From positions 1-64,000 of the forward strand of contig PHCZ01000009.1 of NCBI GenBank assembly GCA_002840895.1: a stretch of 64,000 nt of DNA. The letters are read 5' to 3'. A model generated the notes under the pieces. It was not told the origin of the DNA, searched no databases, and saw only the letters and a program-made list of their open reading frames with translations. The stretch's first letter is position 1. Each line of letters opens with the position of its first letter. Made by a program: the position numbers and the translations under genes. This stretch comes from Bacteroidetes bacterium HGW-Bacteroidetes-8. Lineage in GTDB: Bacteria; Bacteroidota; Bacteroidia; Bacteroidales; UBA932. Shown piece by piece: positions 7,466 to 46,929 of the stretch.

Positions 7466-8713
7466 ATGGAACTGACACTTATTACAATACTATCTATAAT
7501 AGCTTTCCTGGCAGTTACCCTGCTATTGGTTGCTATACTTCTATATGCTAAGGCAAAGCTCACTCCCTCGGGTAAAGTTCAACTTACAATCAACGGCGAG
7601 AGGGAGATAGAGGTCTCTCCGGGAGAGAGCATTCTATCTACACTCTCCAACAATAAAATCTTTTTGCCATCTGCCTGTGGAGGCGGCGGAACCTGCGGAA
7701 TGTGCAAATGCCGTGTCACTAAAGGTGGAGGTGAGATTCTACCGACCGAGGTGGGCTTCTTCACCCGTAAAGAGCAGAATAACCAATGGAGGCTTGGATG
7801 CCAGGTCAAAGTTAAAGAAGATCTTGAAATTGAGGTTCCGGAAGAGGTTCTGGGAATTAAGAAGTGGGAGTGCGAGGTTGTTAGCAACAACAATGTGGCT
7901 ACATTCATCAAGGAGTTTGTTGTAAAACTTCCTGAGGGTGAGCTGCTTCACTTCAAATCCGGAGGGTATATTCAGATAGATATCCCTAAATGTGAGGTAG
8001 ATTTCTCGACAGATGTCCAGGTAGAGGAGAGGTTCCGCGACGAGTGGGACAGTCTCAATATTTGGAGTTTAAAGATGAAGAACAGCGAAGAGACCTTCCG
8101 TGCCTACTCAATGGCCAACCACCCTGCAGAGGGCAACATAATAATGCTAAATATCCGAATTGCCACCCCTCCTTGGGACAGGGCTAAAGGGACATTTATG
8201 CCTGTTAACCCGGGGGTATGCTCATCCTACATCTTCTCCCGCAAACCGGGCGATAAGGTGACAATCTCCGGCCCGTATGGCGAGTTCTTCATAAAAGACA
8301 CACAAAACGAAATAGTATTCATAGGTGGAGGTGCAGGTATGGCACCAATGCGTTCACACATCTTCCACCTCTTCCACACCGAGAGAACCACCCGTAAAGT
8401 GAGTTTCTGGTATGGGGCTCGCTCGCTTCGCGAAGTATTCTACGAAGATGAGTTCCGCGCCATCGAGAAAGAGTTTCCAAACTTCACCTTCAATCTTGCC
8501 CTGAGCGAGCCGAAACAAGAAGACAACTGGACCGGATACACCGGATTTATCCACAAAGTCCTCTACGACAACTACCTGAGCAAGCACGAAGAGCCGGAAG
8601 AGATCGAATACTACCTATGCGGCCCGCCTATGATGAACAGCGCAGTAAGCACAATGCTGGACAACCTTGGTGTACCAATCGAGAACATCGCATTTGACGA
8701 TTTTGGCGGATAA
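7466..8713 (+). CDS. nqrF: Na+-translocating NADH:quinone reductase subunit F
   Basis: The NADH-oxidising entry subunit of the pump. It has an N-terminal membrane helix (about residues 3-25), a 2Fe-2S ferredoxin domain with the ligand pattern [10 protein letters not shown] and a later GC at the expected spacing, an FAD-binding motif RAYSMANHP, and an NAD-binding region with [13 protein letters not shown]. It ends in the usual DDFGG. Its TAA stop is also the first part of a dispersed palindromic repeat (AACCTTGCC...), and the last codons plus repeat are duplicated just downstream. Confidence 0.97.
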
Positions 8714-8754
8714 CCTTGCCAAGCATCGTGGGGCATTGCTGATAATCAAGCATC
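8712..8754 (+). repeat. REP-like repeat, family 1, copy 1
   Basis: It begins AACCTTGCCAAGCATCGTGG and continues to TTGCTGATAATCAAG. The first part contains a CTTG-C-CAAG palindrome and an imperfect GCCAAG/CGTGGGGC pairing, and the second part contains TGCTGAT/ATCAAGCA. The first two A residues belong to the nqrF stop codon. Confidence 0.8.
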
Positions 8755-8775
8755 TAGGGGTGTATCTTGGCGGGT

Positions 8776-8818
8776 AACCTTGCCAAGCATCTTGGGGCAT
8801 TGCTGATAATCAAGTATC
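8776..8818 (+). repeat. REP-like repeat, family 1, copy 2 (tandem)
   Basis: A near-exact copy of the element 64 bases upstream. The preceding bases cttggcgggta also copy the nqrF tail (ttttggcggata), so the duplicated unit includes the last codons of nqrF. In this copy CCAAG-CAT-CTTGG pairs perfectly, which supports selection for a hairpin. Confidence 0.8.
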
Positions 8819-8827
8819 TTGTAGTGT

Positions 8828-30785: not shown

Positions 30786-30789
30786 AGAG

Positions 30790-30812
30790 AACCTTGCCAA
30801 GCATCGTGGGGC
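30790..30812 (+). repeat. REP-like repeat, family 1, copy 3
   Basis: AACCTTGCCAAGCATCGTGG plus GGC, identical to copy 1 over this core; the downstream GATAATCA part is not conserved here. It lies between the dehydrogenase stop and the 3' end of the RAYT gene, 55 bases from the latter. Confidence 0.85.
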
Positions 30813-30867
30813 TTCGTTGTAAAACAGCGTTTTAGCTATTTTACGGATATGTTCATCACTTTATTCA

Positions 30868-31725
30868 TCACTTTTTAGCCAAATGCCCTTTGCAACCGCA
30901 TATCCGCCTTACATAATCGTAATTCAGATTCGTCAAACGGGACAATTGCCTGAATGATGCCCTGGTATTCCGGAAAAGCTTTATAACAATCTCTTCCTGT
31001 TCTTTTTTGCTGATAGTAAAAAGGTTACGACCATTTAACTCTCTGTTCAACTCCTGACAAAGATCGCTGGTGGGCAGCGCCTCAAAAAAAATTCCATTTT
31101 CCATTCGCAGATGGGCAGGCGTCTTCTTTTTCACGGAATCTAATTTAACCTCATTCGGGTAGATCATTAGTGCCGGATTACTTCTGTCATATACCCTAAT
31201 CGCTTCATCAAAAAGATCCTTAGAGCCAAAGTAATTGTCTACCAGACTAGTATCTACATCAATAAACCTCTTCAATGGTGTCTTGCCATTAAAATGAAAC
31301 CCATACGAACTCCATTTGTAATCTGCAACATTTAGGCAGATCTTTGCTTTAACAGGATTTTTAAGGATGTAAATCATACTGTCTATCGCCCACTCATTGG
31401 AAAATTTACAGGAACTATTAAATGGGGACTTGAACAATTTATCTGAAATCTCGTGCCTGAAATTGTACCACTCGACATAACTCATTATCAATGAGGTCAT
31501 CATAGGAGAGAGCTTCTTTGTTTCTACTTGCAGATGCACGTGATTGTCCATTAATACAAACTCAAGCACCTTACTGTCGTATTGTTTTGCAAATCTGTCG
31601 CAACGCTTTAGGAACTCAATTCTGTCAATATCATCGTAGAAAACTATCTTCTTATTATTGCCCCGCATATAGGAGTGGATATTTCCATCCTGAATTCTAC
31701 CTGCAAATCTCCCCCACTTTCCCAT
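30868..31725 (-). CDS. REP-associated tyrosine transposase (RAYT, Y1_Tnp family)
   Basis: A single-strand DNA transposase-like protein of the HUH Y1 superfamily. The HUH motif is NHVHLQV (His62 and His64), and a helix carrying candidate nucleophiles Tyr83 and Tyr87 (SYVEWYNFRHE) follows at the spacing seen in TnpA_REP proteins. FKSPFNSSCKFSNEWAI-like and YILKNPVKA segments are typical of RAYTs. The C-terminal ~50 residues include a helix-turn-helix-like stretch (ASFRQLSRLTNLNYDYVRRI). Length is 285. It is a lone gene with no insertion-sequence ends seen, flanked downstream by a family 1 palindromic repeat, as expected for a domesticated REP-mobilising transposase. Confidence 0.85.
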   Translation of the reverse strand: MGKWGRFAGRIQDGNIHSYMRGNNKKIVFYDDIDRIEFLKRCDRFAKQYDSKVLEFVLMDNHVHLQVETKKLSPMMTSLIMSYVEWYNFRHEISDKLFKSPFNSSCKFSNEWAIDSMIYILKNPVKAKICLNVADYKWSSYGFHFNGKTPLKRFIDVDTSLVDNYFGSKDLFDEAIRVYDRSNPALMIYPNEVKLDSVKKKTPAHLRMENGIFFEALPTSDLCQELNRELNGRNLFTISKKEQEEIVIKLFRNTRASFRQLSRLTNLNYDYVRRICGCKGHLAKK

Positions 31726-34243: not shown

Positions 34244-34308
34244 TGCAAAATATTTAAACCCGCAAAACTTTATTAAAAAAAACAGCAAAATCGTTAGAAA
34301 TCAATAAA

Positions 34309-34330
34309 GCCCCACGATGCTTGGCAAGGT
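34309..34330 (-). repeat. REP-like repeat, family 1, copy 4
   Basis: Minus-strand copy ACCTTGCCAAGCATCGTGG plus GGC. It lies between the divergent promoters of rplU and the AAA ATPase gene, 14 bases before the -7 element of the latter. Confidence 0.85.
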
Positions 34331-34343
34331 CATTTTTTTTTCA

Positions 34344-37681: not shown

Positions 37682-37713
37682 AACAAAAAAAACAGATCTT
37701 TGCCAGTGTTTAC

Positions 37714-37736
37714 TAACCTTGCCAAGGGTCGTGGGG
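37714..37736 (+). repeat. REP-like repeat, family 1, copy 5
   Basis: AACCTTGCCAAGGGTCGTGG plus GGC; the CAT of the other copies is replaced by GGT, which extends the palindrome CCTTG-C-CAAGG. It faces copy 6 in inverted orientation about 83 bases away. Confidence 0.75.
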
Positions 37737-37818
37737 CTTTGCTGGTTTCCAAGCATTTAAATATTTTAAGTCGACAAAGCACAATCAAAATCTCGCTGCA
37801 AACCCCCAAAACCCTTGG

Positions 37819-37858
37819 CACTGATTATCAACAACATCCCACGATGCTTGGCAAGGTT
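37819..37858 (-). repeat. REP-like repeat, family 1, copy 6
   Basis: Minus-strand copy starting AACCTTGCCAAGCATCGTGG and ending in TTGTTGATAATCAGTG. Its first two A residues are part of the TAA stop of the DUF4143 ATPase gene. It matches copy 7 across the full 40 bases. Confidence 0.85.
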
Positions 37859-38984
37859 AAATTACAAAATCCTGCAATGTGACAGGTGTAATTACCTTAA
37901 ATGTGCTTTCAGGATAGGCAGTTGAGAACATCTGCGGCAAAGCACTCTTCTTATTATCTTTAAATTTAAATTCATAGGTGTGTAATGTGCCATCCATCTC
38001 CTCGATGTAGTCAATCTCTTGTTGGGAATGAGTTCTCCAAAAATAGGTGTTGCAATAAAGTCCATTATAATCAATAAATTTTCTACGTTCCGATACTACA
38101 AAATTTTCCCAGAGTGCACCAACGTCACTCCTTAGAGCTAGCGGATTAAAATTATTGACAATTGCATTTCTTACACCATTATCATAAAAATATACCTTTT
38201 TGCTTTTTTTAAGTTCGTTTCTGATATTCCTGCTAAAAGAGTTGAGTCGAAAAACTACAAACACTTTCTCTAAAAGATCTAAGTATCGCTCAACAGTCTC
38301 CTTGTCTAACCCTAAAGATCTTCCAAGCTCATTGTAAGAGACCTCATTACCAATTTGCAAAGCCAAAGCCTTTAGCAAATTACTTAAACCATCGGGATTT
38401 CTAATATCTCTATAAGAGAATATATCCTTATATAAATAACTATTTGTCAATTCTTTAAGCAGCACAACAGAGTCTGCACTGTTATTAACAATATCCGGAT
38501 AAAGGCCATATATCATCCTCTGCTCCAACAAACGGTTCTCTTCAATTGCAGATGTGTGGTTAACCATCTCGTTAACTGAAAAAGGATAAAGATGATACTC
38601 AAATTTCCTTCCCGTAAGAGGCTCATTTAATTTATTCCTTAGGTCAAATGCAGATGAACCTGTTGCAACAACCTGAACTCCCGGAATGTTATCAATAATG
38701 AGTTTGAGAGTTAAACCGATATTATTCACCTTTTGAGCTTCATCAATCAAAACAATCTTATTGTTGCCAATAATAGCCTTCAGTCTTGTTGATGATACAT
38801 TCTCCAAAATCATTCGAATATCAGGCTCATCGCAATTAAGTGAAAGCACCTCTTTTTGTTCATATCCCAAAACCAACTGACTCAACAAAGTTGTTTTCCC
38901 AACCTGTCTGGGCCCGGTAAGGATAATAACCTTTCCATTAAAAAAACGCCCCTTTACACTCCCAAAAATATCTCTTTGAATCAT
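37857..38984 (-). CDS. DUF4143-type AAA ATPase, copy 1
   Basis: A 375-residue P-loop ATPase of the AAA_14/DUF4143 family, common and of unknown role in Bacteroidota. Walker A is LTGPRQVGKTTLL (about residues 23-34), Walker B VLIDEAQKV, and a C-terminal restriction-endonuclease-like DUF4143 domain follows (WENFVVSERRKFI, HSQQEIDYIEE). It is enclosed by two family 1 repeats in the same orientation (37819 and 39130). Operator-like repeats and a TATTTTTG -7 element lie upstream. Confidence 0.9.
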   Translation of the reverse strand: MIQRDIFGSVKGRFFNGKVIILTGPRQVGKTTLLSQLVLGYEQKEVLSLNCDEPDIRMILENVSSTRLKAIIGNNKIVLIDEAQKVNNIGLTLKLIIDNIPGVQVVATGSSAFDLRNKLNEPLTGRKFEYHLYPFSVNEMVNHTSAIEENRLLEQRMIYGLYPDIVNNSADSVVLLKELTNSYLYKDIFSYRDIRNPDGLSNLLKALALQIGNEVSYNELGRSLGLDKETVERYLDLLEKVFVVFRLNSFSRNIRNELKKSKKVYFYDNGVRNAIVNNFNPLALRSDVGALWENFVVSERRKFIDYNGLYCNTYFWRTHSQQEIDYIEEMDGTLHTYEFKFKDNKKSALPQMFSTAYPESTFKVITPVTLQDFVI

Positions 38985-39028
38985 ATCGAATATCTCTTTA
39001 GATCATATTTACAAACTAAATTACAATA

Positions 39029-39036
39029 CAAAAATA
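39029..39036 (-). promoter_or_regulatory. -7 element of DUF4143 ATPase copy 1
   Basis: The complement reads TATTTTTG, 44 bases upstream of the start. Confidence 0.45.
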
Positions 39037-39043
39037 TAAAATA

Positions 39044-39116
39044 TTCGTTTATATACGAAATTTTAATATAAATTCTTCGTATATATACGCCAATTTACCT
39101 ATAAATTCTTCGTATA
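39044..39116. promoter_or_regulatory. operator-like repeats upstream of DUF4143 ATPase copy 1
   Basis: TATAAATTCTTCGTATA occurs at 39067-39083 and again at 39100-39116, 33 bases apart. Next to it, TTCGT-TTATAT-ACGAA forms an inverted repeat near 39044-39060. The spacing of three helical turns suggests a repressor binding on one DNA face. Confidence 0.5.
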
Positions 39117-39129
39117 ACTAACTTTTTAG

Positions 39130-39169
39130 CACTGATTATCAACAACATCCCACGATGCTTGGCAAGGTT
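39130..39169 (-). repeat. REP-like repeat, family 1, copy 7
   Basis: Same 40-base form as copy 6 (AACCTTGCC... to ...GATAATCAGTG). Its first A completes the TGA stop of the astacin/FISUMP gene. Confidence 0.85.
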
Positions 39170-41283
39170 CAATTTTTCACACACCGGACCGAGAAGCCGT
39201 TGCGCTTGAAGTCGTTGTAACGCGCGATGTTGGTGTTGGTGTAGTTTACGCCTCTTACCCAGGCTTTATCTGCACTGAACTCGGTGGAGCTCCACCAATC
39301 TGCACCGTAAGTCATACCCGCGAAGATTCCTGAGTAGAAACGGTATCCGCCGGGGCGGGCCGTGAAGCCGGAGGAGTTTGTGGCTCCGGCATTTGGAGAG
39401 GCCCACTGCGTGGTTCCGGTGGTCTTTAGCTTGCCACTATTGCCGGTGAGCCCGCCCAGGTAGTCTGTAAGGATTGTCCAATCTGCATCGGAAGGAACCC
39501 GCCAACCCTCAGGGCAAAGTTTGCCGGAGTTGACTGCGTGCCAGTTGTAGAGAGCACCATAGGTATCTTTGTTCGCCTCGTTATTGTTATACCAACAGAA
39601 TGAGCCGGTTGTAGAGTTACTCCACCCCGCATCACTCGAGTTCAAGGTCATAGTACTCCTGTCGTTGTACCTGGTCACCTTGAGATTATTTTTGATCCAG
39701 ATTTGAGTTCCAATGGTAACAGTCTCATATTCGTTGTTATCTGCATCTCTCATAATCACCGCAATTGGCGGGTAGAGAGTGTTAATCATAGCAATATCAT
39801 CTGTAGAGAGAAACTGCCTCTGCACACTCCAGGTAGAGCCATCCTTCTTGGTGATTGTGGGGTTGTTGTTCTTGGTGAAAGAGGTGGAGCTGTAGAGCAT
39901 TATTGACTGAAAATCAAATGCCTCCGGGGCGGCAGGAGTATTGATAGATTTTGTGAACTCCGCGAAATTGTGGGCATACTTCTCAATTATGTTTGCAGAT
40001 ACAATGTTTATAAAATTCCCCCTCCCCTTCTTGCTATGCTCGTGAAGCATCCCAAGCGCGTGGCAAATCTCGTGAATAACATTCCCCATTGTACCCCAGT
40101 TTGCCAAGCGAATATCCTGCCGCCCGCCAACCATCCCAAGAAACGAAGAGCATCCGCTAGCATCATACACAAAATCAATATAGTTTGCCTCCCCCGTTCT
40201 CACCACAAACTCCAGATTCGAAACCTCTTTAATGGCATTGATAGCCTGAGTCACCCGCGACGGATTCGGGAGACTCTGGTTGATATTGTAGTAGATACGA
40301 TTATTGGGCCAGTGCCTTGTTTGCAGATTGAGCCCCGCCCCCTTTGTTACCACGCCTTGCGACTGTCCTGCAATCCCGGACGACTGCCAGGCAACGCCCG
40401 TAGACTGTCCTGCAACCCCGGATAACTGCCCTGCAACACCTTGCGCCTGCGGTGCGGCCAGAATAATATCTCCCTGATATATATAGAATCCGTTGATAAG
40501 CTCGCAAGTGACACTCTCACCATCAAGGGTAACTGCAGATGTATTCCCGGCCGAGGCAGGAAACATCTGCTCTGCTCCAATCAAAACATCTGTAGTTTTT
40601 GTAGTGAACGAACTCGCTGTCCCGTAAGATGTACCCGCCGAATTTGTGGCATAAGCCCGCGCATAATAGGAGGTGTTGGGAGCAAGCCCGGTAATAACGC
40701 TGGTAAAAGCCCCGGCACCCGTCCCGTCACTAGTTTTGCTGTCACTCACAGTTGGAGTCGGCGATGTACTCCAGCACACACCCCTTGCAGATACCGCCCC
40801 GCCACCATCACTCGTCACCGACCCACCTCCAGAAGCGGTTCCCGTTGTAACATCCACAACTGCAACCGTAGTTACAGTTGGTGCAGTTGCTCCTGTGCTA
40901 AAACTGAGCTGCGAACCGTAGGCGGTCCCCACAGAGTTAACAGCATAAGCACGAACATAATAGGTTACCCCGGGAGATAGCCCTGTAATTTGGCTGATAA
41001 AACTTCCTGTTCCCGACCCATCTGTAGTTTTAGAACCCGAAGTGGTAGGATTTTGATCTGTCCCCCAGCAAATACCCCTGGAGGTGACCGCTACCCCCCC
41101 ATCGCTCGCCACACTCCCCCCGCTCTTTGCAGAGGTAGTGGTAACATCTGTCACAGCAGTTGTTGTCACAGACGGAGCACTCTTTACCGGCTCGTTATTC
41201 GGCTGCGTTTTTGTGCACCCTGCCGTTATAAAATAGAGCGACAACAGCACAATTAACAATGAGTTATTAATTTTTGCAGACAT
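39169..41283 (-). CDS. exported lipoprotein with Fn3-like repeats, astacin protease and FISUMP domain
   Basis: A 704-residue surface lipoprotein. Lipobox Cys23 (FITAGC), then two Fn3-like repeats of about 90 residues (TTTSAKSGGSVASDGGVAV and TGTASGGGSVTSDGGGAV type; each ends YYVRAYAVNS or YYARAYATNS). An M12A astacin domain follows with HEICHALGMLHE (HExxHxxGxxHE, about residues 404-415). The last ~200 residues are a FISUMP-type domain (ETVTIGTQIWIKNNLKVTRY, YGALYNWHAV, CPEGWRVPSDADW). A linker before the protease has GVAGQSSG-type repeats. It likely binds or cleaves proteins at the cell surface. Confidence 0.88.
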   Translation of the reverse strand: MSAKINNSLLIVLLSLYFITAGCTKTQPNNEPVKSAPSVTTTAVTDVTTTSAKSGGSVASDGGVAVTSRGICWGTDQNPTTSGSKTTDGSGTGSFISQITGLSPGVTYYVRAYAVNSVGTAYGSQLSFSTGATAPTVTTVAVVDVTTGTASGGGSVTSDGGGAVSARGVCWSTSPTPTVSDSKTSDGTGAGAFTSVITGLAPNTSYYARAYATNSAGTSYGTASSFTTKTTDVLIGAEQMFPASAGNTSAVTLDGESVTCELINGFYIYQGDIILAAPQAQGVAGQLSGVAGQSTGVAWQSSGIAGQSQGVVTKGAGLNLQTRHWPNNRIYYNINQSLPNPSRVTQAINAIKEVSNLEFVVRTGEANYIDFVYDASGCSSFLGMVGGRQDIRLANWGTMGNVIHEICHALGMLHEHSKKGRGNFINIVSANIIEKYAHNFAEFTKSINTPAAPEAFDFQSIMLYSSTSFTKNNNPTITKKDGSTWSVQRQFLSTDDIAMINTLYPPIAVIMRDADNNEYETVTIGTQIWIKNNLKVTRYNDRSTMTLNSSDAGWSNSTTGSFCWYNNNEANKDTYGALYNWHAVNSGKLCPEGWRVPSDADWTILTDYLGGLTGNSGKLKTTGTTQWASPNAGATNSSGFTARPGGYRFYSGIFAGMTYGADWWSSTEFSADKAWVRGVNYTNTNIARYNDFKRNGFSVRCVKN
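40350..40450 (-). repeat. Gly/Val/Gln/Ser coding repeat in the astacin protein
   Basis: In-frame units of about 8 residues (GVAGQLS, GVAGQST, GVAWQSS, GIAGQSQ) encoded by ~24-base tandem copies containing gactgtcctgcaa or close variants. It lies N-terminal to the protease domain. Confidence 0.75.
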
Positions 41284-42596: not shown

Positions 42597-42601
42597 CCAC
42601 A

Positions 42602-42615
42602 ACCCTTGCCAAGGT
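42602..42615 (+). repeat. REP-like repeat, family 1, fragment
   Basis: ACCCTTGCCAAGGT, the first palindrome of the family only, just after the stop of DUF4143 ATPase copy 2. Confidence 0.5.
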
Positions 42616-43862: not shown

Positions 43863-43870
43863 TAACCACA

Positions 43871-43884
43871 AACCTTGGCAAGGT
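43871..43884 (-). repeat. REP-like repeat, family 1, fragment
   Basis: AACCTTGGCAAGGT; the palindromic CCTTG-N-CAAGG core only, with the opposite central base. Just beside the left 61-bp repeat. Confidence 0.4.
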
Positions 43885-44737: not shown

Positions 44738-44783
44738 GTGGTCTGCTGCGCAGGTGTGTTTACCGCTGCGCGGATTTCAACTG
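44738..44783 (+). repeat. dispersed palindromic repeat, family 2, copy 4
   Basis: GTGGTCTGCTGCGCAGG, TGTGTTTA spacer, CCGCTGCGCGG and TTTCAACTG; the most complete member, containing both palindromes perfectly. It lies in the 313-base gap between the toxin gene and the phosphoesterase gene, in which I see no further gene. Confidence 0.7.
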
Positions 44784-44901
44784 TTAGTGTTTTGTGTAAG
44801 TATTTGTAATACAATATATTAATTTTTACGATTTTTTCAATTGCCAAAATCGCTATTTTCATATACTTATAAATCAGACTGTTTCACATAACACTGCCAG
44901 T

Positions 44902-46929
44902 TCAATATTTTATAAGGCCTACTTTCCCATCCATAGAGGTTACGAGTAGGGTGCGGTTACCTATTGGGCGGATGTAGTTGATGAGGGCAATGGAGAAGCG
45001 GTAGGTCCAGGCGACGGTTCCATCTGCAGCGTTGAGAACGAATATGTTGCCTTTGTCGGTTGGGATAAAGACGAGATCGTTGGCTGTGGTGATTGGTGAG
45101 GGGGCTATTTCATAGCCGTAGCCGGTGTGGCTTGCCCACAAGAGGTGGGGTTTGCCAACCTGGGATGCGGCAGGGCTAGTGGCGGCTGCGGCCGGCTTTG
45201 TGGCTGTGGTGGCAGCGGTGGCAGGGCCGGATTTTGGGGTGGCAACAGTCGCCGGGTTAGCGGCGGCAGGGCTAGTGGCGGCAGGGCTAGTGGCGGCAGG
45301 GCTAGATGCAGCAGGGCTAGATGCAGCAGCTGGGGTAAAATCTTTGGTGCTGAATGCGAGGACGGTGTCTTGCATTGTTTTTACATATAGGGTGTTGCCG
45401 TCGGGGGAGAGGCCTATGGATTCGCGGCCGCCGCGGGCGCTCCAGAGCTCTTTGCCGGTTTTGGCATCAATTGCGTGGGAGCGGCGCTCGGGGGTAACTA
45501 CGAATAGTTTGCCGTTGGCTTTTAGCGGCCACACTGCGGCGGCAGAGAGTCCCCTACCCTTGTTGTTGGTCCATTTCCACAGCAGGCGACCATCTGCAGG
45601 GTTAAAGGCGTAAACTTTGTTGGCCCAGTCACCAATATAGACCCCTTGGTCATCTGCCCACGGCTTGGCCTCTATGAAGCCTTTTATTTGTGAGTAGACC
45701 CACAGCAAATGGCCACTTGAGAGCTCAATTGCACGGAATGCGTTGTCTGATGCACCTATATATACTATACCTTTATGTATTGTTGGCGAACCGAGTACAC
45801 TTTTGGTGGCTTCGACTTTCCATTTGAGCTTGCCGGTTTTGGCATTGAGGCAGTAGATGTGGTTGTCACTCGAGCCCACAACCAGCAGGCCTGTTTTTTC
45901 GCACACCTCGGGCGAAGAGAAGATCTTGCCATCGGTCTTGGCCTTTACCACACCCGCAGTGTTGGAGATAAATACCATATTGAACGCAAAAGCCGCCGCC
46001 GACCCTATATCCGAATCATCCTGGTAAACCCACACTGCACTTGCGGGAGAGTCTACGCGATCTTTACCGGATGGACCCCACATTGCCGGTGGAGACTCCT
46101 TCTTGATAGGTTGTTTATGCCACGGTTTGTGGGTGATGGAGTTGGAGCGGACTGCGTAGGTGATGGAGTCGGTGGTTATGGTGACTATGTTGTAGCCCGG
46201 GTGGGTGGGTTTGGCGGCGGTGTAGTTACCGCGCAGGTTGGAGCGGCCCATTATTCCCGGAATGCCCTCAAAGTCCATTACACGGTTGGAGTGGCCGTGG
46301 CCGCACATTGAGACCTGGGTGTTTACCCTCTTGAGCATATCAATGACAGTTTTGTAGTTGAGCATTGCATCGTCTAGCGGATAGTGGTTGATAAATACCA
46401 CCGGAATGTGTTTTGGGAGTGCATTGGTCACGGAGTCCAGCCAAACAATAGTTTCGCGGGGAACAAGAGCGGGTGCCATACGCATATTTGGTCCCGAATT
46501 TGTGCCAATAAATTGGATTCCGTTAAAATTGAAATTAAAGTGTTCGTAACCGAAAACCTTTGAAAATGTGTTACATCCACTCTCGCTCCATTTAGAATCG
46601 TGGTTCCCCGCTACTATGTAGTAAGGAATGGTTAGTTTATCTACGATAGATTTTGCTAAAAGTATCTCCTCGTCACTGCCAAATTCTGTTATATCGCCCG
46701 CCAGTATTACAAAATCGATACCTTTCAAATTGTTAATGTCTTTTACGGAAGTCTCGAGATCCTCTACGTTGGTTGCAACATCGCTCACGTGAAGATCTGC
46801 AAGGTAGGCAAAGCGGACAAGCGCTTTTTTGCCGGTTTGCGGCGGTCCAACATCTTCAGCTAAATAATCTGAAGAATAACTACTTATATAGCAAAGTAGT
46901 AAAGCTATAAGTATAAAATATTTTTTCAT
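44902..46929 (-). CDS. metallophosphoesterase fused to a PQQ-like beta-propeller
   Basis: A 675-residue exported protein. Signal MKKYFILIALLLCYISSYSS (ATG at 46929; the open frame continues further upstream without family support). The N-terminal calcineurin-like phosphoesterase has all metal motifs: ADLHVSD, LAGDITEFGSD, GNHDSKW and GHGHSN. From about residue 290 a PQQ/WD-like propeller follows (LYVKTMQDTVLAF, VYIGASDNAFRAI, IYCLNAKTGKLKWKV). A long Ala/Ser/Pro/Thr repeat interrupts the propeller. Predicted periplasmic hydrolase; substrate unknown. Confidence 0.88.
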   Translation of the reverse strand: MKKYFILIALLLCYISSYSSDYLAEDVGPPQTGKKALVRFAYLADLHVSDVATNVEDLETSVKDINNLKGIDFVILAGDITEFGSDEEILLAKSIVDKLTIPYYIVAGNHDSKWSESGCNTFSKVFGYEHFNFNFNGIQFIGTNSGPNMRMAPALVPRETIVWLDSVTNALPKHIPVVFINHYPLDDAMLNYKTVIDMLKRVNTQVSMCGHGHSNRVMDFEGIPGIMGRSNLRGNYTAAKPTHPGYNIVTITTDSITYAVRSNSITHKPWHKQPIKKESPPAMWGPSGKDRVDSPASAVWVYQDDSDIGSAAAFAFNMVFISNTAGVVKAKTDGKIFSSPEVCEKTGLLVVGSSDNHIYCLNAKTGKLKWKVEATKSVLGSPTIHKGIVYIGASDNAFRAIELSSGHLLWVYSQIKGFIEAKPWADDQGVYIGDWANKVYAFNPADGRLLWKWTNNKGRGLSAAAVWPLKANGKLFVVTPERRSHAIDAKTGKELWSARGGRESIGLSPDGNTLYVKTMQDTVLAFSTKDFTPAAASSPAASSPAATSPAATSPAAANPATVATPKSGPATAATTATKPAAAATSPAASQVGKPHLLWASHTGYGYEIAPSPITTANDLVFIPTDKGNIFVLNAADGTVAWTYRFSIALINYIRPIGNRTLLVTSMDGKVGLIKY
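45165..45335 (-). repeat. Ala/Ser/Pro/Thr coding repeat in the phosphoesterase-propeller protein
   Basis: About seven 15-base units (plus-strand ctagtggcggcaggg) encode SPAAT/SPAAS repeats, followed by Ala/Thr/Lys-rich sequence. It is inserted between two propeller blades. Confidence 0.85.

Follow-up and report, generated by a model that had tools for sequence, protein, structure and literature searches.

A RAYT gene and a tagged repeat family tied to stop codons in an uncultured genus of Bacteroidota

The RAYT gene and repeat family A

The window analyzed here is a 64-kb stretch of the genome of Bacteroidetes bacterium HGW-Bacteroidetes-8 (2.90 Mb, 22 contigs; G000 in the following), which belongs to an uncultured genus of the Bacteroidota. 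It contains a gene for a REP-associated tyrosine transposase (RAYT; REP, repetitive extragenic palindromic sequence) and several copies of a short repeat, designated family A. The two form a real RAYT-repeat partnership in Bacteroidota, in which the repeat is tagged, possesses an extra core and little hairpin, and is strongly tied to stop codons. An earlier note, made from the letters of the window, had linked gene and repeat on the basis of their proximity and form.

The RAYT-like HUH/Y1 gene is located at 30868..31725 on the minus strand and, as had been proposed, is an open reading frame (ORF) of 285 codons. Its product P0001 (285 aa) matches Pfam Y1_Tnp with 29.2 bits, above the cut-off of 23, and its best NCBIfam match is REP_Tyr_transpos (NF047646) with 33.6 bits, under the cut-off of 80 of that family. 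Both motifs that had been claimed for the protein are present in the translation, namely the HUH motif NHVH at residues 61-64 (31534..31545, minus strand, coordinates by arithmetic) and YILKNP at residues 119-124, the first residue of which, Tyr119 (31369..31371, minus strand), is the probable catalytic tyrosine. YILKNP fits the motif Y---NP, which is described as the signature of class 2 TnpA_Y1 proteins (PMC6006769). The C-terminal helical region, residues 221-275 (30901..31065, minus strand), is a probable helix-turn-helix (HTH). Single-sequence AlphaFold2 places helices at 221-230, 240-253, 258-265 and 269-275, in blocks with a predicted local distance difference test (pLDDT) of 65-84 within a poor model of mean pLDDT 43.7, and weak HTH matches under the cut-off were obtained for two of the six RAYTs of genus members that were searched. 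The HTH domain search of P0001 itself gave no match, and the PDB sequence search with P0001 returned a single, irrelevant chain (E 0.36). Apart from this gene, G000 encodes one relative with 41% identity.

One copy of family A (30789..30835, plus strand) adjoins the 3' end of the RAYT gene and is oriented towards it; a copy with the same site and orientation is found in genome G016 (L110). Further copies are located at 8711..8757 (plus), where the TAA of the repeat is the stop codon of an nqrF-type gene at 7466-8713, at 8775..8821 (plus), in tandem 64 bp behind the former, at 34286..34332 (minus), also present at the orthologous site of G016, at 37714..37760 (plus), a GGTCG variant, at 37813..37859 (minus), where the TAA is the stop codon of an AAA/DUF4143 gene at 37857-38984, and at 39124..39170 (minus), one base after the TGA stop of a gene at 39169-41283. 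The 20-mer AACCTTGCCAAGCATCGTGG has seven places in the window on both strands at ≤3 mismatches, with 0 expected from shuffles, and these seven copies agree with the places given in the earlier note within some 20 bases. The two short fragments listed there at 42602 and 43871 turned out to be partial copies on the minus strand, each a 19-base match to the family core: ACCTTGGCAAGGGTTGTGG at 42597..42615, which has the core type of genome G009, and ACCTTGCCAAGGTTTGTGG at 43866..43884. A genome-wide enrichment, which had been named as a check, is borne out by 34 exact matches to ACCTTGSCAAGNNTNNTGG in G000 and none to the same pattern read backwards. The sequence model recovers 35 copies, and the 21-base core has 30 places at ≤3 mismatches (reversed pattern 0), one of which (L047) looks like a chance match. 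Copies of family A are short, dispersed and extragenic, and dimers occur. The statement that the repeat always lies between genes is nearly right; many copies, however, begin at a stop codon, and in some the stop itself is provided by the repeat.

The unit of about 47 bp reads TAA-CCTTGCCAAG-N2-T-N-GTGG-GGCTTTG-YTGATNATCAG-N2-ATTTA. Twenty-nine G000 copies (L047 omitted as a chance match) align without gaps, and conservation begins sharply at -3 and fades past +43; position -1 is A in 29/29, -2 is A in 26/29 and -3 is T in 20/29 copies. The model was built from 28 copies, L046 being omitted too. An alignment of 65 copies comprises 28 copies of G000 and 37 of the 40 G016 copies. A GT[AG]G motif occupies +14 to +17 in 58 of these 65 copies (57 GTGG, 1 GTAG), the other seven having TTGG. 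Classical REPs carry this same GT[AG]G tag, and its presence makes the repeat more ordinary.

The repeat had been called palindromic, and three internal pairings had been proposed for it. Both pairings in the conserved left half proved unsupported, as none of the 65 copies beats shuffles at p ≤0.05 between -3 and 20 (mean z +0.33). The pairing TGAT-N-ATCA in the right half (18-42) is partly supported, with 13/65 copies beating shuffles at p ≤0.05 where about 3 are expected (mean z -0.81, median +0.17); the label palindromic therefore holds weakly, for a variable right-half hairpin that sits about 3 to 7 bases behind the tag. The whole unit folds better than shuffles in 3/65 copies at p 0.05. 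Covariation of an eight-pair right helix is borderline (the score was reached by 41/500 shuffles, the number of paired cells by 38/500), the number of right-helix pairs with two-sided change was reached by 467/500 shuffles, and slid versions of the helix score lower. Covariation of a four-pair right helix and of the left pairs is at chance on 28 copies. Seven repeat sequences folded singly as DNA gave z values of +0.18 to +1.08, none beyond shuffles; among five folded as RNA, four gave +0.46 to +0.72 and L038 gave -1.11, and Rfam at gathering scores had no match in the 64-kb window. Inverted dimers share variable bases in 2/3 cases in G000 and 2/3 in G016 (chance 0.17 and 0.30), direct dimers in 0/1 and 3/3 cases, respectively; these numbers are too few to claim concerted change. 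In G016, one copy runs directly into its own inverted complement at a TGATTATCA centre (L145 10819-10872), forming a collapsed inverted dimer with a long stem.

Distribution and placement of the repeat

Whether the repeat follows the RAYT across relatives was examined in two sets of genomes. Sequence model and protein searches covered 60 genomes, consisting of G000, 24 same-genus, 11 same-family and 24 same-order genomes; in addition, an exact pattern taking both the G000 and the G009 type of core was scored in the 25 same-genus genomes including G000, with the reversed pattern as control. The pattern is found 34 times in G000, 50 times in G016, 179 times in G009 and 6 times in G008, and is absent from the other 21 of the 25 genomes; the reversed control gave 0 in 25/25. 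The model detects copies in the same four of the 60 genomes (G000 35, G016 56, G008 15, G009 5); its search of relatives used stricter filters, at which weak matches are lost. RAYT relatives at E 1e-5 or better occur in 27/60 genomes, but identity of at least 65% is reached only in G000 (100%), G016 (96%) and G009 (65%), the next-closest proteins being those of G021 and, over part of the length, G001, both at 51%. The three close RAYTs form one clade (support 98/91) in a tree in which E. coli RayT is the sole named reference. All three genomes with a close RAYT contain the repeat, compared to 1/24 other RAYT carriers (G008) and 0/33 genomes without a detected relative; in the same-genus tally, in which kinship was not corrected for, the figures are 3/3 close carriers and 1/22 others. 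The proposed test across relatives thus came out in favor of the link, and the expectation that the repeat is missing where a close RAYT is missing holds within the same-genus set with the exception of G008 and its 6 to 15 copies. A phylum-wide search gave a relative at E ≤1e-15 in 12/395 genomes, G000 included; outside G000, identity is at most 36%.

The diverged RAYT of G009 goes along with a diverged repeat. Its gene runs into a contig end, and the C-terminal part is located on another contig; the pieces, with 65% identity over residues 6-190 and 52% over residues 199-279, are inferred to be one gene. The variant core CCTTGGCAAGGGTTGTGG has 208 places in G009 at ≤3 mismatches (reversed control 0), and few copies have the form found in the window. 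This core also holds GTGG, a feature that has to be read with the caveat that the G009 copies were chosen by a pattern containing GTGG. In the G009 unit, a second GTGG lies at about +33 to +36, and the two tags enclose a short palindrome, e.g., TTGCATGCAA, whose letters differ between copies.

In both G000 and G016, a copy lies just 3' of the RAYT gene in the same place and orientation, facing the gene. G009 has a copy likewise placed beside the C-terminal RAYT fragment, and an inverted pair upstream of the N-terminal part folds as a dimer with a z of -9.4 (single G009 unit -1.2). Copies also crowd around the gene: in G016, 14/56 copies are within ≤50 kb of the RAYT, where 2.0 are expected (p 8e-9), and 30/56 within ≤150 kb, where 6.0 are expected. 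After merging copies ≤300 bp apart, 10/47 remain within 50 kb (p 5e-6) and 24/47 within 150 kb (p 7e-12). In G000, 7/35 copies fall in the 64-kb window (p 1e-5).

The placement of family A at stop codons was analyzed with genes called by a simple, crude ORF caller. Copies starting exactly behind a sense stop codon make up 11/28 usable copies in G000 and 14/39 in G016. Among copies with a sense gene upstream, these are 11/22 and 14/32 (p 6e-7 in both genomes), compared to a null of 8.6% (G000) and 9.7% (G016) of the TAA trinucleotides in comparable places. The sense orientation itself is favored, with 22/28 copies in G000 (null 0.53, p 0.005) and 32/39 in G016 (null 0.44, p 1e-6). The upstream reading frame enters the repeat and ends inside it in two G000 and eight G016 copies. 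In G009, with its different core, 5/32 examined copies abut a sense stop and 10/32 lie within 0-10 bp behind one, where the null is 1.6%; the remaining 22/32 are not so placed. Since TAA also precedes copies away from stop codons, the trinucleotide seems to belong to the element or its target and to be more than a by-product of gene ends. REPs are mostly found downstream of coding regions, according to PMC3733652.

Comparison of G000 with G016 made use of stretches fetched around the G016 copies, in which sites that lost the repeat are under-sampled. A syntenic place in these stretches was found for 17/29 G000 copies and by hand for one more, leaving 11 unplaced; differences were counted in 12 of the 17 syntenic pairs, the other five being excluded owing to rearrangement or because they could be aligned only with indels. 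Differences are seen at 1/120 sites in the first ten core bases, at 17/132 in the eleven that follow and at 41/276 in the right half, compared to 63/480 in the 40 bases upstream and 111/360 in the 30 bases downstream. One site has two tandem 43-bp copies in G016 and a single copy in G000. G016 lacks the copy at C17:172504, yet the surrounding sequence is also replaced, so that no clean insertion junction is visible. Window positions 37692-39170 and G016 L141 3088-5030 have orthologous flanks around a gene swap that is bounded by repeats: the AAA/DUF4143 gene lies between the copies in G000, and the G016 sequence resembles the beta-propeller genes of the window near the tandem copies. A G009-type core lies within a called reading frame at G016:C2:151327-151345 (L141 11327-11345); the orthologous stretch of the window near 46100 is without it, and the poor local alignment there does not allow a junction to be defined.

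Origin of the repeat and relation to known systems

All in all, this RAYT lineage probably has its cognate non-autonomous element in family A, which is REP-like and combines a GT[AG]G tag with an additional 5' core and a hairpin that is weak and variable. What the sequences establish is the association, the confinement to four genomes, the crowding near the gene, the core change that matches the diverged RAYT of G009, the tag and the placement. The copies have presumably moved, and this RAYT presumably works like E. coli TnpA_REP, with single-stranded repeat DNA as its substrate. In the proposed mechanism, the RAYT would bind single-stranded repeat DNA guided by the CCTTGSCAAG core and the GTGG tag, which would do most of the work, its tyrosine would cut at an element edge such as TAA|CC, and copies would be joined behind short targets such as (T/G)AA or NGA; inverted and tandem dimers would arise by the same route as single copies. 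TAA and TGA stop codons would fit the target and insertions there would survive selection, which would let copies accumulate behind genes in sense orientation. A bolder version, which we regard as doubtful, posits a RAYT lineage whose protein carries a DNA-binding tail and whose repeat relies on core and tag, with little hairpin; using (T/G)AA or NGA as target, such a lineage would lay its elements precisely behind stop codons. If true, a single-strand recombinase would in effect target gene 3' ends, adding a common element to the 3' untranslated region (UTR) and sometimes a new stop. A regulatory role of the copies in 3' UTRs is possible.

Several observations weigh against the repeat being the partner of this RAYT, or against parts of the proposed mechanism. 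In G008, the model counts 15 copies and the exact pattern 6, and no RAYT of the clade was detected; the G008 assembly is 89% complete and consists of 370 contigs. The carriers of the repeat may be close kin, in which case the correlation is not phylogenetically independent. Among the placed copies, no clean empty site was found between G000 and G016, and the RAYT gene is flanked on one side only in both genomes and not by inverted copies on both sides. In the right half, 52/65 copies fold no better than shuffles, in keeping with a weak hairpin. Residues W94 and Q95 of E. coli RayT, which contact the tag (PMC6006769), correspond to F98 and K99 of P0001 in an alignment by eye, which implies that the details of how the tag is read would not be the same. 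Selection after insertion, and not targeting, could account for the enrichment at stop codons, and the counts rest on the crude ORF caller and, for G016, on stretches chosen around copies. Lastly, two of nine RAYTs of the genus whose flanks were scanned (G021 C5:390040 and G010 C1:425492) have no clear recurring flank.

Alternatively, the repeat could be a 3' UTR element of the host, e.g., a terminator helper or a signal for mRNA stability or the end of translation, which was spread by duplication and kept by selection, with the RAYT as a mere neighbor. The strong sense placement exactly behind stop codons and the conservation of the first ten core bases (1/120 differences between G000 and G016, compared to 111/360 just downstream) would fit such an element. 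However, 21/25 same-genus genomes do without the repeat, four of five sequences have no RNA fold beyond shuffles, Rfam has no match in the window, and neither the crowding around the RAYT nor the matched core change in G009 would be explained, which makes this origin unlikely. Even less probable is that the repeat is a miniature inverted-repeat transposable element (MITE) or an attachment (att)-like site of another element with a DDE transposase or a tyrosine recombinase. Inverted pairs do occur, the gene flanked by copies at 37.8-39.2 kb is swapped in G016, and the genus has other repeats arranged as MITE-like inverted pairs spaced by about 105 bp; yet the aligned copies showed no conspicuous terminal inverted repeats (TIRs) or target duplication, and G000 and G016 both retain the copy at the RAYT 3' end, with one G009 copy lying beside the C-terminal RAYT fragment.

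An origin from the anticodon arm of tRNA-Gly(GCC) (TAACC-TTGCCAA-GGTTA), either as a tRNA-born repeat or as an integration core, was also considered. Next to the second RAYT of G000 lies a tRNA gene that matches the repeat in 13 to 14 bases, and against 29 distinct tRNA genes, only 1 to 7 of 1000 dinucleotide shuffles score equally high. The exact match, however, ends after 14 bases, and a short dyad explains the likeness. This highly improbable origin was rejected because GCC is replaced by GGC in the G009 family, which breaks the match.

As the cognate element of a RAYT, family A can be compared with the REP/RAYT (TnpA_REP) systems of gamma-proteobacteria. Common to both are an HUH Y1 protein with Y---NP, a low copy number of the gene and short GT[AG]G-tagged copies that are dispersed. 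In those systems, the number of REPs goes with the RAYT in most comparisons, and REPs crowd within ≤200 kb of the RAYT in three marine gamma-proteobacteria and one beta-proteobacterium, as reported by Nunvar et al. 2010 (PMC2817692); in tracking its RAYT and crowding within about 200 kb of the gene, family A behaves alike. Differences concern the tag, which lies about 3 to 7 bases from a weak hairpin in family A and at the foot of a strong one in the classical systems, the extra conserved 5' core CCTTGSCAAG, the TAA edge on stop codons and the one-sided flank of the gene in G000 and G016. P0001 is also longer, with 285 aa and a probable HTH tail compared to the 165 aa of E. coli RayT, and by eye W94/Q95 are not kept. 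REPs near stop codons of E. coli reportedly affect translation, an observation attributed to Liang et al. 2015.

The earlier note took a RAYT/REP system in Bacteroidota for a useful new case; it is not a first in the phylum, since RAYT-repeat links in Bacteroidetes were previously published (PMC6006769). As described by Quentin et al. 2018 (PMC6006769), TnpA_REP subclass 2.6, mostly from Bacteroidetes, is flanked by atypical weak structures that are found elsewhere in the genome, its tag-contact region is not conserved, and Bacteroidetes are also among the hosts of subclass 2.4, whose REPs are long and double-foot; PMC3733652 mentions REPs of Bacteroidetes with a CGTC tag. Family A and its RAYT resemble subclass 2.6 (Bertels group 5) in the phylum, in the weak repeat structures copied elsewhere in the genome and in the non-conserved tag-contact region. 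P0001, however, falls outside this subclass with its 285 aa and YILKNP, compared to a mean of 179 aa and YIH[QN]NP as given for 2.6, and family A has GT[AG]G, which the 2.6 repeats, compared by their published description only, do not have. The length of P0001 and its C-terminal HTH-like plan (the HTH being weakly supported) are rather reminiscent of TnpA_Y1 subclass 2.1/TIRYT. Some TIRYTs have moderately abundant repeat families, as is the case here; the GGGGWSAS shared by many TIRYT TIRs was not seen in the family A consensus. Subclass 2.1 is described in PMC6006769 as having C-terminal HTH domains, with no REP-like sequences reported in that description; should P0001 be 2.1-like, the subclass as described there would thereby gain a cognate repeat for the first time.

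Insertion of IS200/IS605 elements occurs behind a short target that abuts the left end of the element. Family A and its RAYT share with these elements (IS608, ISDra2) the Y1 chemistry and, as far as the core and tag act in this way, guide sequences that choose the cleavage site (PMC8266576); unlike them, the RAYT is a single gene copy, the repeats are dispersed without the gene, and there are no strong terminal hairpins. E. coli TnpA_REP is described as cutting single-stranded DNA at CT beside a GTAG-tagged hairpin (PMC8266576). The biochemistry covered in that source comes from gamma-proteobacterial cases with GTAG-tagged hairpins, and the spread of REPs by RAYTs is still inferred. No report of family A turned up in a search of the literature on RAYT/REPIN, on RAYT in Bacteroidetes or Bacteroidota and on REP plus stop codon, with subscription journals mostly outside the scope of the search; literature matches to the repeat letters AACCTTGCCAAG look unrelated, and a Chryseobacterium paper names a RayT gene, without repeats in the part available (PMC11194056). 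The known RAYT-repeat partnership is hereby extended to a new lineage, and the placement at stop codons provides a concrete, testable target hypothesis that bears on the gathering of REPs at gene ends.

Other RAYTs and repeat families of the genus

RAYT-repeat pairing is common in the genus, with family A being the one with a tag and little hairpin. The nine RAYTs mentioned above come from G016, G021 and G010; the scan of their flanks looked for 14-mers that recur within the fetched stretches. Three RAYTs of G021 adjoin near-perfect hairpins of 37 to 43 bases, each with a sequence of its own; two of these genes are flanked on both sides and one on one side (L228, L236-L244, L247). The hairpin families comprise 8, 3 and 3 elements matched in 400 kb, with fold z values of -8.0 to -12.6, and their stems vary at matching positions. 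Two RAYT lineages with distinct repeat families were scored genus-wide, and three siblings in one genome have strong hairpins of another shape. A genus with many diverged RAYTs and distinct repeat families therefore offers a natural series for asking what a RAYT recognizes.

The second RAYT of G000 (C4, 41% identical, beside tRNA-Gly) and its relative in G008 go with the repeat CTGTTAGTGTTTTGTG, which has 10 places in G000, 12 in G008 and 8 in G016, and 0 or 1 in the other 22 same-genus genomes. One copy of this family lies in the window (44781-44796), and at G000:C4:38323-39569 a copy overlaps the TAG stop codon of the second RAYT itself. The related RAYT of G016 belongs to a four-row group with a protein of G001 (support 95/95), a genome that has no CTGTTAGTGTTTTGTG repeats. 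A RAYT of G010 lies among pairs of AAAAATCAGTGCCA, with 69 places in G010, 46 in G006 and 0 in 23 others; these form inverted pairs TGGCACTGATTTTT...AAAAATCAGTGCCA that resemble MITEs and often have a spacing of about 105 bp, e.g., at G010:C1:1713824-1715929. As no relative of that G010 RAYT was detected in G006 by the protein search, the pairing of AAAAATCAGTGCCA with the RAYT is unproven.

The same tRNA-Gly(GCC) sequence has a RAYT no more than about 1.2 kb away in six genomes of the genus (L018, L117, L120, L121, L122, L137; ARAGORN was run on L018 only). The RAYT proteins at this site differ much, and the site may be an old home or a hotspot.

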